This document shows positions 4,101 through 10,941 of a DNA stretch of 64,000 bases, one piece after another. Both the position numbers and the translations under genes were made by a program. This stretch comes from Deltaproteobacteria bacterium (GTDB lineage Bacteria; Myxococcota_A; Polyangia; HGW-17). Position 1 is the stretch's first letter. Every line of letters starts with the position of its first letter. The stretch covers positions 62,001 to 126,000 of the forward strand of contig JAFGWM010000040.1 of the NCBI GenBank assembly GCA_016937155.1, given 5' to 3'. The notes below the pieces were generated by a model that did no database searches, was not told where the DNA came from, and saw nothing but the letters and a program-made list of their open reading frames with translations.

Positions 4101-7100
4101 CTATGCTCTGAAATTCGCCTCACTGGATGTTTTTAACTTTCTGTTTTCCCATGATCTTTTGACTTCATAAACAAAATTCTCAAGAGTTGCCACATCAAGG
4201 GGTTCACCGTTGAGACTGAATGTTACTGAGGGAATAGAGGTCATTTCTTTTGCCGGATAGTACATGGCTTCCGAAATTTTATTGGGCATACATTCCAGTG
4301 GACCAACACTTACAACTCCATCAATTTCTCCGTGATTGAATTCATACACTGGACCACCGAATGTCAGAATAGCTTCTCCTACAAGTTTTTTCCTCAACCA
4401 AGGTTGAGCTCCTTCAAATGCATTTTCCGGTTTAAGTCGCGGGCCCCAGCCCATTTTGTAGGCGATGGATTCATACAGTCTGTTCTGAACGGTTCTCTGT
4501 ATAAATCCTGATATGGTTCGTACAACCGGACCGTCAAAATCAGTGAATCTACCTCTTGTTATCTCTTCATTATTAATTTTATCAGTATACTCGAGCCATT
4601 CCTGAAGTGGAGCCAGTTTCGGTCTGATTCCTAATTCTTCAAGGCGTTTGATTATAAAATCATTGGAAAATGGATCAAGACGTACATAAATTTCTCCAAC
4701 CACAGCAACTGTTGGAACATTTCTATCAGATTTTAACTGATTGAATTCCTCAGCTGCATCACTGAGCAGTTTTCTGAGTCCGAAAAGTGATCCCATCACT
4801 TCGTAAAGTGCCTGTGTCAATCCGGTGGGTGGTGCGGAAGAAATAGCCAGTAGTTTTTTTCTATATTTTGAATAAATTTTATCAGCAGAACCAGGAATTT
4901 TTTCAATAACTCTGGTGTGTAAAAGAGCATCATAAAGAAGATCACTTGTGACAAATGCTGCAAGTATCCTTAATGCGAGTCCTTTGGGAACACCGGTAAA
5001 ATAATCACTATCGGGTTGGGATATTACCTTGACTCTTTCAGCATAACCGAGATTTGAAAGAACCATTTTATGAAAAGTATTATACATCCCGAATCTGCAT
5101 GGTCCATTTGCAGTGGGCATAAAAAATGCGAATGTTTCTTCTGGTTGTGCTTTTTCAATGCGTTTGAGTAAACTTCCAAGAGTCACTGTAGCAGGAAGAC
5201 ATTCCTTGCCGCTGGAATGTTTTCTCCCGCATTCAAGAGTCATCTGATCTGGCATATCAAGAGTCTCCGTTTTTAGTCCTCCAGCAAGGAGTGAAGCAGC
5301 AGCAACCTCGGCAGCTTCTCCCATTCTTGGAATAAGAATAATGTCATTTCTTTTTTTTGCATCACTAAGATCAGGAGAATCCAGTTCGAGGTATTTGAAC
5401 TGTTTTTTTTGTGTTTTTGTAGAACGTGAGTTTTTAAGATCATTTTGAACAGTATGTAAAAATGCTTCGAGGCGTGTTTTTGTTCCGGCATCTCCACTGT
5501 GACCGTCAGTTTCAATGGTTGCATGAGGCTTACCCTGAAGGATAAAATCTGCAAAGTGAAGGTTGAAACTGTCCGGGCCACAGCTGTAATTACTACAAAA
5601 AACACTATAAATACCTTCGGTTTTTCTAATTTGATGAGCAGCTCTGAGATTAATCTGTGAATATCCCCAGTATACTATATTGTAAACAGGATTTTCATCT
5701 TCAATGTGATATCCATCAACAGGAATTGCAACAGCTCCAAGTTGACGCAGTATTCCAGGCACATTTGAATTGAGGATATCATTGTGTATAGTATAGGCTC
5801 TTCCCAGAACAACAACGGGAATAATGTTGTTTTTTTCTGCCCATTGAATTGTTTCACTGCAGTATTTTTTAAAATCGGAATTAAATTCGAGCTGTTTATT
5901 AAAAGCTTTCAGGTAAGATTCTTCGATTTTTTCAGAATCTGAAACACCAAAGCTTAAGGCGATTTCAGTAATGCTTTTCATAAATAGATCAGAAGTGAGA
6001 TTCCCCTGACCCATATCTATTACATCAGTAATAAATTTGGTGTTTTTATGGAAAGGCCCGAAAAGTGATTGATATATATCAGCACTGGCCTGACTGAGTG
6101 GGCAAACCGTGCTGTGGGGCTCACTTCCACTTTTTTCAATATCTCGAATCATTGGTAGGAAAATAATATCCGGGTTTTCATCCAGCATCGAGGCTGTAAT
6201 TCCACCATAAAGCTGCATGGGGGCGCAATATGGAACACTGTTTTCTTCGATACCTCTTTTGAGATGTTCTCTTGTTCCTTTTTCAGGTGTAACAATATTA
6301 AAACCAAGTTGATTAATAAAAGTCGAGAAAAAAGGATATAAACCTTTTAGTGCAAACTCATCTGTGACAGCTACCAGCGGGGCATTTTTATGCTGAGTAA
6401 GACTTTCCTTAAGTTTAGTAAGCAAATTTACACGATATTTAAAAGGATCAGGTGAGAGATCAGGAAGAGAACTTCCCCCATGTCCACCCTTGTCATAAAG
6501 GGAACACTGTCCTCCCCATATAAATGTTTTTTCCTGATTATTGACGCTTATCTTTAGACGATCAATTCTGCATTTATTACCTGTTCCCCCACAACCTTTA
6601 GTACTTTTACATACAAATGTATCTCTGGAAACGAGTTTTGAATTAATGAACGCATCAACACTATTGATTGTAGAATCGACCTTCAGATGTTCCATTGCCA
6701 GAAGACCAATACCTATTGCACCTGTAAGTCCTGGATAGGGAGGTATTACAATTCTCCTGCCGGTCTTTGCAGCTGTTGCTGCAGCCAGTGCCGGGCTGGA
6801 GTAAGGCATACCCTGACAAAAAATTTTATTTCCAATTGTTCTGGATCCTTTAACTCTGTTAAGATAGTTACTTACAACACTGTCATAAATACCTGCGATG
6901 ACATTATTCTGATCCACATTTGCACCAAGTGCCTGGTCTATTACTTCAGCCATGAATACACTGCAATGCTGGCCAAGACTTATTGGTGCATCACTTTTCA
7001 GAGCAATTTCACCCATATGAGTGATGTCATTGATTCCTTCAAAGCGTTGTCCCTGTTCTTCTATAAAACTTCCGGTTCCGGCACTGCAGGCCTCATTCAT

Positions 7101-8420
7101 AGCACTGTCAATAACTTCACCATCACTAAGTCTTATATATTTTGCATCCTGTCCACCAATTTCAAATATGGTATCCACTGTTGGATCGAAATATACGGCC
7201 CCTTTCGCATGGGCAGCAATCTCGTTCATTATGTACACACGATCAGGTTCAAAGGCAGTTTTCAACATGCTTCCCGCAATTTCCCGTCCACTTCCTGTGA
7301 CACCAAAACCAGTTATCTGAAATTTTCCGTTAAAATGTTCTTTGAATTTTTTAATAATGTTTCGTGCGGCTAGGGCAGGATTCCCTGAAGTTCTGGTGTA
7401 ATGTTCAAAAATAAGATTTTTAGTCGCAGCATTTATCGCTACTCCTTTTGATCCTGTGCTTCCTATATCCAGTCCTATGAGAAGTTTTGTATCACCTTCA
7501 ATTGATTCAAAATCAACTGGTTTCATGAAGTTAACCATGTGAAGGTAATTTGAAAGAGAACTGGATTTTTTGAACTTGTCGCTTTCAGGGGAAGAAAAAA
7601 TAGTTTCGTAGGTAACCATTGAGATTTCATTACGCTGATGGAGTCTCATTGCTTCAAGTGCTGCTCCAACGCTTTCATAAAACATGAATGTGTCATCACT
7701 ATCTATGTGAAGACTGATATTTTTTGAATTACAGAAATTTTCAATATGTTTTCTGATTCGGAATGACTTCGAAACTCCTCCACTCAGCCAGATATCTCCG
7801 GGAATAACCGCAGGCTTTATGAGAACCTCCACATTTTCAGCTACGGCATCGAAAAGTCCGGCAAGTATTTGATTTTTTGACTCACCACGATTTGCAAGAT
7901 GTGTCATATCTGTTTTAAGAATTACAGGACATCGGCCACTTAATGGAGAAGGCCTGGTTTCGGAATTGCAAAGTTCATCAGCCTGTTCAACCTCCAGATC
8001 GAATCGTCTGGTAAGCTGCTTCAGAAAATTACCGGTACCCTGACTGCATCTGCCATTTTCTCTGTAGATGTGGTTATCAGGACCGCGCATTTCAAGAACT
8101 GAAAATCCATGACCCCCAATATTCACCAGAGCACCATGGGTTATGTCCGGATTGAAGAAAGTAAAACCAGCAGCCATAGCTTTTGGGATAGGAATAGATG
8201 AAGTATCAAGAAGAGATGATAGTCTACCCGTGGTACAAATACCATCAAAGGAAGAAGGATTGACTTCCTTTAGGTATTTTTTAAGAACTCTTTCAGGATT
8301 TTTATCATGATCAAAATGTGTACGACTAGTACAGTATACTTCCATACCATCATTAATAATTATAGCCGTTTTTATTGTTTCTGCCCCAATATCTATACCT
8401 AAATATTTGTTTTTATACAT
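4101..8420 (-). CDS. Giant acyl-CoA dehydratase activase-like Fe-S protein (two ASKHA domains plus DUF2229 and HgdB-like regions)
   Basis: The 1439-residue protein has two BadF/BadG/BcrA/BcrD-type ATPase domains in tandem: residues about 5-265 (GIDIGAETIKTA; GRCSQGTGNF) and about 315-580 (LDIGSTGSKG; CSAGTGSF near 445). Then comes a DUF2229-like region with PYCAPMQLYGG (about 731), SNYSCGPDSF (about 945), GKECLPATVTLG (about 1068), GPCRFGMYN (about 1107) and GPLECMPN (about 1375). These spaced Cys residues suggest Fe-S ligands. Family knowledge: such activases use ATP to drive low-potential electron transfer to 2-hydroxyacyl-CoA dehydratases, benzoyl-CoA reductases or double-cubane proteins. 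No separate dehydratase gene is next to it, so the C-terminal region may itself be the acceptor; the substrate is unknown. SD-like AGAGG precedes the ATG. It is probably oxygen-sensitive. Confidence 0.9.
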   Translation of the reverse strand: MYKNKYLGIDIGAETIKTAIIINDGMEVYCTSRTHFDHDKNPERVLKKYLKEVNPSSFDGICTTGRLSSLLDTSSIPIPKAMAAGFTFFNPDITHGALVNIGGHGFSVLEMRGPDNHIYRENGRCSQGTGNFLKQLTRRFDLEVEQADELCNSETRPSPLSGRCPVILKTDMTHLANRGESKNQILAGLFDAVAENVEVLIKPAVIPGDIWLSGGVSKSFRIRKHIENFCNSKNISLHIDSDDTFMFYESVGAALEAMRLHQRNEISMVTYETIFSSPESDKFKKSSSLSNYLHMVNFMKPVDFESIEGDTKLLIGLDIGSTGSKGVAINAATKNLIFEHYTRTSGNPALAARNIIKKFKEHFNGKFQITGFGVTGSGREIAGSMLKTAFEPDRVYIMNEIAAHAKGAVYFDPTVDTIFEIGGQDAKYIRLSDGEVIDSAMNEACSAGTGSFIEEQGQRFEGINDITHMGEIALKSDAPISLGQHCSVFMAEVIDQALGANVDQNNVIAGIYDSVVSNYLNRVKGSRTIGNKIFCQGMPYSSPALAAATAAKTGRRIVIPPYPGLTGAIGIGLLAMEHLKVDSTINSVDAFINSKLVSRDTFVCKSTKGCGGTGNKCRIDRLKISVNNQEKTFIWGGQCSLYDKGGHGGSSLPDLSPDPFKYRVNLLTKLKESLTQHKNAPLVAVTDEFALKGLYPFFSTFINQLGFNIVTPEKGTREHLKRGIEENSVPYCAPMQLYGGITASMLDENPDIIFLPMIRDIEKSGSEPHSTVCPLSQASADIYQSLFGPFHKNTKFITDVIDMGQGNLTSDLFMKSITEIALSFGVSDSEKIEESYLKAFNKQLEFNSDFKKYCSETIQWAEKNNIIPVVVLGRAYTIHNDILNSNVPGILRQLGAVAIPVDGYHIEDENPVYNIVYWGYSQINLRAAHQIRKTEGIYSVFCSNYSCGPDSFNLHFADFILQGKPHATIETDGHSGDAGTKTRLEAFLHTVQNDLKNSRSTKTQKKQFKYLELDSPDLSDAKKRNDIILIPRMGEAAEVAAASLLAGGLKTETLDMPDQMTLECGRKHSSGKECLPATVTLGSLLKRIEKAQPEETFAFFMPTANGPCRFGMYNTFHKMVLSNLGYAERVKVISQPDSDYFTGVPKGLALRILAAFVTSDLLYDALLHTRVIEKIPGSADKIYSKYRKKLLAISSAPPTGLTQALYEVMGSLFGLRKLLSDAAEEFNQLKSDRNVPTVAVVGEIYVRLDPFSNDFIIKRLEELGIRPKLAPLQEWLEYTDKINNEEITRGRFTDFDGPVVRTISGFIQRTVQNRLYESIAYKMGWGPRLKPENAFEGAQPWLRKKLVGEAILTFGGPVYEFNHGEIDGVVSVGPLECMPNKISEAMYYPAKEMTSIPSVTFSLNGEPLDVATLENFVYEVKRSWENRKLKTSSEANFRA

Positions 8421-8467
8421 TTTTAAACCTCTAAAACAGTCCTGTGTTCTATCTGACAGTTGACTAG

Positions 8468-8501
8468 ACTGATATATCAGTTTATTAGTGACTTATGTCA
8501 A
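8468..8501 (-). promoter_or_regulatory. Promoter with palindromic operator for the activase-like gene
   Basis: On the minus strand TTGACA (8496-8501), a 16-base spacer and TGATAT (8474-8479) form a good sigma-70-type promoter about 50 bases before the start codon. The -10 box lies entirely inside a perfect 14-base palindrome, ACTGATATATCAGT (8468-8481). A dimeric repressor bound there would block the promoter. No regulator gene is adjacent, so the protein that would bind is unknown. Confidence 0.5.
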
Positions 8502-8537
8502 TAAAAAAGAAGATTTGCCGAGAATAAAAATGTCAGC

Positions 8538-8565
8538 TTGACATGAGAATTTTGGGTATTATGTT
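8538..8565 (+). promoter_or_regulatory. Promoter of trxA
   Basis: TTGACA (8538-8543), a 16-base spacer and TATGTT (8560-8565) predict transcription starting near 8572, just before the leader hairpin. Confidence 0.5.
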
Positions 8566-8579
8566 AATCCCATCAATTG

Positions 8580-8640
8580 CCGACGGATTTTTATTTCATG
8601 GTAAAAGGTAAAATCATGTGGTGTTTCCGTCGGTTTTTTT
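8580..8640 (+). promoter_or_regulatory. Terminator-like leader hairpin upstream of trxA, with a mini-ORF inside
   Basis: CCGACGGA (8580-8587) pairs perfectly with TCCGTCGG (8626-8633), closing a 38-base loop, and is followed at once by seven T residues and then the trxA SD. The gene to the left points the other way, so this is not the end of an upstream transcript: it lies between the trxA promoter and its start codon. On the opposite strand no T-run follows. The loop holds an ATG at 8598 opening a 14-codon frame (MVKGKIMWCFRRFF) that ends with TAA at 8640-8642, inside the U-tract. The SD for that peptide is poor (ACGGA). This reads as a possible attenuator; whether the peptide is made is speculative. 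Confidence 0.45.
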
Positions 8641-8655
8641 AATGGAGGCTTTAAA

Positions 8656-8973
8656 ATGGCAAATAATGTAACTGATTCCACTTTTGATAAAGAAGTTCTT
8701 AAATCTGATCTTCCAGTTCTTGTTGATTTCTGGGCACCATGGTGTGGTCCCTGTAGAATAGTGGGTCCAACAATTGAAACTCTGGGTAAAGAGTATTCCG
8801 GTAAGGTAAAAGTAGTAAAGGTTGATGTTCAGGATAATCAGGGGATAGCCATGAAATTTGGAATCAGGAGTATTCCTACAGTTACCTTGTTTAAGGGTGG
8901 ACGTGCTATGGGTTCACTGATTGGAGCCAGAGCCAAGGGTGACTATGAAAAACTGATCAAAAAAGCCTTCTGA
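8656..8973 (+). CDS. trxA: Thioredoxin
   Basis: This 105-residue thioredoxin, a standard length, has the redox motif WCGPC (in FWAPWCGPCR, about residues 30-34), the buried Asp in VLVDFW, and the cis-proline loop SIPT. It reduces cytosolic disulfides, including those of peroxiredoxins such as the Bcp homologue at 47.1 kb. A strong SD (TGGAGG) precedes the ATG. It has its own promoter and a terminator-like leader. No thioredoxin reductase gene is in the window. The T3SS gene sctL follows after about 95 bases on the same strand, so read-through is possible. Confidence 0.97.
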   Translation: MANNVTDSTFDKEVLKSDLPVLVDFWAPWCGPCRIVGPTIETLGKEYSGKVKVVKVDVQDNQGIAMKFGIRSIPTVTLFKGGRAMGSLIGARAKGDYEKLIKKAF

Positions 8974-9067
8974 TTAAAAATTTATCCTGTTGATTCTTGT
9001 CATCACATTATTCATCTGATAAAAATCTGTTTAAACAACTATAGACACTGTCAATCTGGTGGTTTAA

Positions 9068-9646
9068 ATGGAAAAAATCAAATCTACTAATGCAGTTTTG
9101 AGGCCCTGGCCCAATGTTCTCAGTTCAAGTGATGCAAGGTTTTATGAAAATGTCAAGAATCTGCAAAATAAGTTAAATGAAGAAAAACAGAAATTAGTTC
9201 AACTTGAAGAAGAATCAAGAGTCAGGGGATTTCAGGAAGGCTACCAGGATGGTTCAAGGAAAGCTTTTGAGTTATATTCTGAAATCATAAAAAATTCCGG
9301 AGCCGATTTTGTTGAGAATCTAAAAAAAGAGCTTCCGTATGTAATTTTAAAATTGATTGAAAAAATTATTTCAATTGAAATAAAAAATAATCCCAGACAA
9401 ATGGAAAATATAATAAATCATATCGCCAGTGATATCCCGGATATGATTCCTGTCCGAATTAGACTGAATTCTCTACACGAGGGAAATATTGATCACATAT
9501 GGCTGAAAGAAAAATTTCCCGGGGGAGTATCTGTCGTTTTTGAGGAATCTTTTCCGGTCACTGATGTATCTGTATTTTTTGCAGGAAAACATGCTGATTT
9601 TTCAGTAGAATCCGTTCTAAAATCAGTAGAGAAGTTTTTAAAATGA
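9068..9646 (+). CDS. sctL: Type III secretion stator protein SctL (FliH/HrpE/YscL family)
   Basis: The 192-residue protein has the usual FliH/YscL order: a short N-terminal tail, a charged coiled coil (about residues 28-60) running into a Gly-spaced segment (GFQEGYQDGSRKA), and a C-terminal V-ATPase-E-like domain that in the family binds the export ATPase. Family members control ATPase activity and link it to the sorting platform. Its stop overlaps the start of sctN by 4 bases (ATGA), so the two are translationally coupled. The pair looks non-flagellar because sctJ in this window is of the short lipoprotein type and no flagellar gene is present. A flagellar FliH is the alternative. Confidence 0.8.
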   Translation: MEKIKSTNAVLRPWPNVLSSSDARFYENVKNLQNKLNEEKQKLVQLEEESRVRGFQEGYQDGSRKAFELYSEIIKNSGADFVENLKKELPYVILKLIEKIISIEIKNNPRQMENIINHIASDIPDMIPVRIRLNSLHEGNIDHIWLKEKFPGGVSVVFEESFPVTDVSVFFAGKHADFSVESVLKSVEKFLK

Positions 9647-10941
9647 AAAAATCAATAAACTCTATTCTTGAAAAAATCGAGAGCATAGATGGAATAACTA
9701 TCAGTGGAGCAGTTACTGGTGTTAGTTATCCATTGATTAAAGGCATCTGTGATGAAGCCGGTCTTGGTGAGATTGTTATTATTACAGATGGAATCAGAGA
9801 AATATTGGGTGAGGTTACAGGCTTCTCCGGTGAAACAATTCTTGTTTTCCCATGGGATAATATTGAAGGTATTAATTCCAGTTGGAAATTGATACCCACA
9901 GGAAAAAAATTCACAGTTAAAGTATCTCCAAATATGACTGGCAGAATTTTTGATGGCTTAGGAAATCCTATTGATGACAAGGGCGATATTGATATGGGAA
10001 GTCAAATGGCCGTTGATACACAAGTTATATCTCCTCTTTCGAGGAAACGTATTAATGAACCTCTGTTTACTCACATTCCTGCTATTGATGGATTGCTAAC
10101 CATTGGTAAGGGACAGAGAGTTGGTATTTTTGCCGGTAGTGGAGTTGGTAAATCCACACTTTTAGGTAATCTAATAAGAGAATCGGCCAGTGATATTAAT
10201 GTTGTGTGCCTTGTGGGTGAAAGAGGACGGGAAGTAAGGGACTTTATAGAAGATGTTTTAGGTGAAGATGGAATGGCTAGAACCGTTATGGTGGTTTCCA
10301 CATCAGATACTCCTTCCATAATACGATGGAAAGCTCCACTAACTGCAACAGCTATTGCTGAATATTTCAGAAGACAGGGAAAAGACGTACTTTTACTTAT
10401 GGATTCTCTTACCAGATTCGCAAGAGCCGGAAGAGAGCTTGGTTTAAGTATGGGGGAAATACCTCTTAGAAGGGGTTATCCGGCAAGTGTTTTTGCAATG
10501 ATGCCTAAGCTTCTGGAACGTGCTGGAGTCACAAGCCATGGAAGTATTACAGGAATTTACACCGTTCTTGTAGAAGGTGGTGATATGGAAGAACCTGTTG
10601 CTGATGAAGTTCGTGGTATTCTGGATGGACATATTGTTATGGATAGAACTCTTGCCTCAGAAGGCCTTTTTCCTGCGATTGATATTTCATCCAGTGTTTC
10701 AAGAATCATGAATGATATAGTAACAGATGAACATAAATCAATTTCAATTGAAATAAGAAAAAGAATTGCCAATTACTACCAGAACCGGGATCTTGTGAAA
10801 GTTGGAGCGTATGTTCCAGGAAATGATCCTGATGTTGATATTGCACTTGGAACTATAAAACAGATTCAGGCATTTGTTCATAACAATGAGTCTCTTGACT
10901 ATGAATCAGTTATTAGAAAAATGAGAGAAATTGTTTCCTAG
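9643..10941 (+). CDS. sctN: Type III secretion export ATPase SctN (FliI/YscN family)
   Basis: The 432-residue F1-beta-like hexameric ATPase has Walker A GSGVGKST (about residues 165-172), Walker B VLLLMDSLTRFA, and the strongly conserved stretch PLRRGYPASVFAMMPKLLERAG. The segment MEEPVADEVRGILDGH resembles non-flagellar SctN/YscN more than FliI. It unfolds and releases substrates from chaperones at the base of the export apparatus. Upstream partner sctL overlaps its start. It converges with the pseudokinase operon 17 bases away. Length and motifs are complete, so the enzyme should be active. No other export-apparatus gene (sctV, R, S, T, U, Q) is nearby: the system is dispersed in this genome. 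Confidence 0.9.
   Translation: MKKSINSILEKIESIDGITISGAVTGVSYPLIKGICDEAGLGEIVIITDGIREILGEVTGFSGETILVFPWDNIEGINSSWKLIPTGKKFTVKVSPNMTGRIFDGLGNPIDDKGDIDMGSQMAVDTQVISPLSRKRINEPLFTHIPAIDGLLTIGKGQRVGIFAGSGVGKSTLLGNLIRESASDINVVCLVGERGREVRDFIEDVLGEDGMARTVMVVSTSDTPSIIRWKAPLTATAIAEYFRRQGKDVLLLMDSLTRFARAGRELGLSMGEIPLRRGYPASVFAMMPKLLERAGVTSHGSITGIYTVLVEGGDMEEPVADEVRGILDGHIVMDRTLASEGLFPAIDISSSVSRIMNDIVTDEHKSISIEIRKRIANYYQNRDLVKVGAYVPGNDPDVDIALGTIKQIQAFVHNNESLDYESVIRKMREIVS

Follow-up and report, generated by a model that had tools for sequence, protein, structure and literature searches.

In the 64,000-nt stretch of DNA that was analysed (the window), a hairpin followed by a run of T residues lies between a promoter-like site and the Shine-Dalgarno sequence of trxA, which raises the question of whether this hairpin limits the transcription of trxA and whether it does so in response to a signal. 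The preliminary description had listed a promoter, an 8-base stem with a 38-base loop, seven T residues, a Shine-Dalgarno sequence and a 14-codon frame, and all of these elements are present in the sequence. The features of the leader are as follows:

8538–8565, plus strand: promoter-like site TTGACA-16-TATGTT (promoter scan; start near 8572 inferred)
8579–8634, plus strand: terminator-like hairpin of eight Watson-Crick pairs and one G-U pair, with a weak inner stem (−21.4 kcal/mol)
8598–8642, plus strand: 14-codon frame, judged a chance frame (sequence, shuffles)
8634–8640, plus strand: seven T directly after the stem (sequence)
8644–8648, plus strand: GGAGG, the trxA Shine-Dalgarno sequence, predicted to be accessible (sequence, folding)
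8656–8973, plus strand: trxA, thioredoxin, 105 aa (open reading frame; Pfam PF00085)

The TTGACA box (8538–8543) and the TATGTT box (8560–8565) are separated by a spacer of 16 bases and match the consensus at 10 of 12 positions. The same promoter scan returned five promoter-like sites in 1 kb, where chance predicts 3.8, and taken alone the trxA promoter is therefore no more than chance. Support for it comes from the relatives, in which TTGACA also precedes trxA. The "good promoter" of the preliminary description thus gains from this comparison and not from its own score. From its position, transcription would start near 8572. A perfect inverted repeat (ATGTCA-GCT-TGACAT, 8530–8544) overlaps the −35 box; it has a single copy in the genome and occurs at the same frequency as the reversed control, so that no regulon is suggested.

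The arms of the stem, CCGACGGA (8580–8587) and TCCGTCGG (8626–8633), pair perfectly across 38 bases, and a G8579–T8634 pair extends the stem. Folding prediction showed that the 38-base loop is not open, since a weak inner stem is possible (−4.5 kcal/mol for 8592–8624 alone). The 96-nt leader had a folding z of −3.0, with none of 200 shuffles equally stable, and the 84-nt leader had a z of −2.9, with one of 200 equally stable. As expected for an intrinsic terminator, the stem is stable and G+C-rich and the U-tract stands at once behind it. Efficient intrinsic terminators have short loops; the loop here is far outside the 3–8 nt range, and a scan restricted to loops of that size found no hairpin in 8200–9200. 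The upstream gene (4101–8420, minus strand), which encodes a BadF/BcrA-type CoA enzyme activase with DUF2229 (Pfam), is divergent. It was correctly noted in the preliminary description that the hairpin cannot end a transcript of this neighbour, and, given a start near 8572, the hairpin would belong to the trxA leader and would have no role for the upstream gene.

The rarity of the hairpin was assessed in a sample of 464 kb from the 4.1-Mb genome, consisting of the 64-kb window and 20 further stretches (L117–L136). Under a strict rule for the stem and T-run (8 or more Watson-Crick pairs, of which 5 or more are G-C, and 6 or more T in 8), which was fixed only after the hairpin had been seen, the sample held a single site, both strands counted, whereas 30 shuffles of it gave 0.4 on average. 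Shuffling the window produced a hit in one of 30 cases, and shuffling the leader in 2 of 20,000. Taken together, stem and T-run are probably more than a product of chance. The terminator d-score, calculated after the d'Aubenton Carafa formula, is less decisive than the strict-stem count. In an unrestricted scan of the 464-kb sample, the hairpin scored 18.1 and ranked 12th of the 25 sites with d of at least 10, and 12 sites had d of at least 18, where each of five shuffles yielded between 2 and 9. No higher score was reached by any of the 352 gene 3′ regions or the 76 divergent leaders surveyed in the sample; the gene set of this survey came from approximate longest-open-frame calls and excluded genes shorter than 120 aa, trxA among them. 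With the same approximate calls, 7 of the 352 gene 3′ ends had d above 0, compared with 1.6 in shuffles. Because gene 3′ ends in the sample rarely carry such hairpins, intrinsic termination may be of little weight in this organism. The leader DNA and the stem pattern each have one copy in the genome, indicating that they do not belong to a mobile or repeat family.

The trxA locus was then compared with those of relatives. TrxA was matched at 1e-25 in 48 of the 59 genomes searched, the own genome included. In the genome of the same genus (G001, locus L006), TrxA is 81% identical, and the gene order of divergent activase, trxA, FliH-position gene and FliI-type gene is kept; the same order is found in a MAG labelled Archangium sp. 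SZUA-606 (L036), with TrxA 69% identical. In both loci, TTGACA, 16 bases and TAGAAT or TTAGAA precede trxA. Their leaders of about 48 nt (G001) and 35 nt (L036) folded no better than shuffles (z of 0.63 and 0.73, respectively), and the hairpin is absent from both. In two other family members (G004 and G006), trxA has TTGACA before it and a leader that is longer but folds at shuffle level (z of 0.15 and 0.05) and contains neither hairpin nor T-run, and no such hairpin was found in G003, where a thioredoxin-like gene lies directly upstream. Searches with the leader DNA in 8 family genomes and in 289 class genomes, the own genome included in each, returned only the leader itself (one match among the 289). 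The leaders of the window and L006 align poorly upstream of the gene, and we therefore make no claim of base-by-base homology. Before trxA, a promoter is kept in relatives and the hairpin is not; with the stem in none of these relatives, it does not qualify as a conserved cis-regulatory RNA. Conservation of the stem, which the preliminary description had set beforehand as a test, failed in G001, L036, G004 and G006. The comparison of two genomes within the genus is compatible with a gain of the hairpin here and with a loss in G001. Since the relatives examined lack it, the trxA hairpin probably serves as a local brake for a single gene, not as a shared switch.

Hairpins with a T-run were also sought within 150 nt before 110 trxA-like loci, which were the TrxA matches with an extracted locus (115, minus the distant thioredoxin-like genes L002–L005 of the own genome and the window duplicate L035); gene starts were set by script at the closest ATG in frame, which may have misplaced some of them. 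Such hairpins were found at 16 of the 110 loci, whereas 50 shuffles gave 2.2 on average and never more than 6. Eleven of the 16 are cyanobacterial, and the other five (the window, L015, L024, L109 and L110) are at about the shuffle level. Rfam identified Yfr1 in all three cyanobacterial loci tested (L039, L060 and L071), which indicates that the scan is able to detect a hairpin that is truly conserved close to trxA. No hairpin shared with the window was found among the 110 loci, and Rfam assigned no family, Yfr1 included, to the window at gathering scores or to the leader at a loose threshold. Among the papers listed by a literature search, none reported attenuation in a trxA leader.

From the arrangement of these elements, we consider it about evenly balanced that the trxA 5′ leader carries a species-specific, promoter-proximal hairpin of the intrinsic-terminator type, which would cause partial termination without regulation. 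RNA polymerase would start near 8572, and the nine-pair stem would form some 7 nt behind the 5′ end of the transcript. After the seven U residues, a fraction of the transcripts would end near 8640, and the remainder would read through into trxA and perhaps into two further genes, the FliH-position gene and the gene for the FliI/EscN-type ATPase. The hairpin would thereby set the level of trxA, and we infer that no signal is sensed. When the leader was folded without the 3′ arm, the folding programs gave −7.4 kcal/mol, compared with −21.4 kcal/mol for the hairpin, and found no comparable antiterminator. A sensor would have little room, with some 7 nt ahead of the stem, a loop of 38 nt and so weak an alternative fold. 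Masking of the Shine-Dalgarno sequence is an unlikely mechanism, because GGAGG is predicted to be accessible (unpaired probability of 0.6 to 0.96), and the U-tract behind a strong stem together with this accessible site fits partial termination better. Leader intrinsic terminators likewise have a G+C-rich stem and then a U-tract between promoter and Shine-Dalgarno sequence, but the trxA leader differs from them in its 38-base loop, in having no strong antiterminator and no conservation, and in a sensor that is only hypothetical. The points against a terminator are the long loop, the 12th rank of the d-score, the shuffles that reach such scores and the missing conservation.

The attenuation layout proposed in the preliminary description is plausible as far as a leader terminator with partial premature termination is concerned, but the switch based on the frame is not supported. 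In such a switch, ribosomes translating the 14-codon frame would open the stem and permit read-through, depending on redox state or tRNA charging. The position of the frame suits this idea, since its stop codon begins with the last T of the run and a ribosome there would cover the 3′ arm. The frame runs from the ATG at 8598 to the TAA at 8640–8642 and translates as MVKGKIMWCFRRFF. ATG frames of at least 14 codons occurred in 6.6% of 2000 leader shuffles, and frames with any start codon in 20%, and the frame is no more than chance. Its ATG is predicted to be paired, no clear Shine-Dalgarno sequence precedes it, and its Trp-Cys and Arg-Arg pairs form no run of regulatory codons. Amino-acid attenuators of the trp and his type work through a leader peptide; the trxA leader resembles them in a short frame overlapping a hairpin and differs from them in having no clear Shine-Dalgarno sequence, no regulatory-codon run, no strong competing helix and a start codon predicted to be paired, so that neither a short frame with a clear Shine-Dalgarno sequence and regulatory codons nor an exclusive antiterminator helix, both expected of leader-peptide attenuators, was found. 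With relatives that do without the stem, a regulated attenuator is decidedly improbable, and the redox- or charging-sensitive switch is not supported by these results. It is more improbable still that a recently gained leader terminator couples the cluster of thioredoxin, FliH-position and FliI-type genes to translation of the short frame, with redox or charging as the input, in a lineage with apparently few other hairpin terminators.

The main alternative, of lower probability than the partial terminator, is a hairpin that does not terminate, either as a neutral feature of the leader or as a 5′ stem that slows decay of the mRNA. Stem-loops at the 5′ end slow the decay of other mRNAs, and this stem would lie close to the inferred 5′ end, some 7 nt away; the long loop, the similar d-scores of shuffles and the relatives that keep the gene order without the stem also agree with this explanation. 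Against it stand a G+C-rich stem and the seven T that follow it immediately, the combination that so few leader shuffles reproduced. It is unlikely that promoter and hairpin produce a small RNA of their own, some 69 nt long and similar to Yfr1. Promoter, hairpin and T-run alone would yield such an RNA, and the scan that returned the window hairpin also detects Yfr1 at cyanobacterial trxA loci. Yfr1 (RF01116) is described as a small RNA between guaB and trxA, and cyanobacterial trxA has its own promoter and starts some 100 bp beyond yfr1, on its downstream side (PMC1242208). Both are short units upstream of trxA with a 3′ hairpin and T-run, but the window leader has no Rfam match, and the 15 nt from the T-run to the trxA ATG leave no space for a promoter of trxA itself, in contrast to the roughly 100 bp and separate promoter given for cyanobacteria (PMC1242208). 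Least probable of all is that the repeat acts as a DNA operator of two 8-base half-sites 46 bases apart, with no RNA structure. A perfect inverted repeat just downstream of a promoter is in keeping with an operator, but it occurs only once in the genome, and the T-run directly behind it would require a separate cause.

If the hairpin does terminate, it would join the other leader hairpins that restrain a housekeeping gene, and it differs between two species of one genus. The main value of the locus is as a caution, as a promoter, a stem, a T-run and a short frame in a row can mimic a switch even where near relatives that share the gene order manage without the hairpin.

The surroundings of trxA gave further observations. 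Downstream, 9068–10941 holds the FliH-position gene, which has no Pfam match, and then the FliI/EscN-type ATPase gene; G001 and L036 show the same arrangement. In the promoter region of the activase gene (8455–8510, minus strand), a TTGAC box and TGATATATC are shared by the three loci of this gene order (the window, L006 and L036), and this pair is a candidate conserved promoter or operator. Three further copies of CTGATATATCAG lie elsewhere in the genome.
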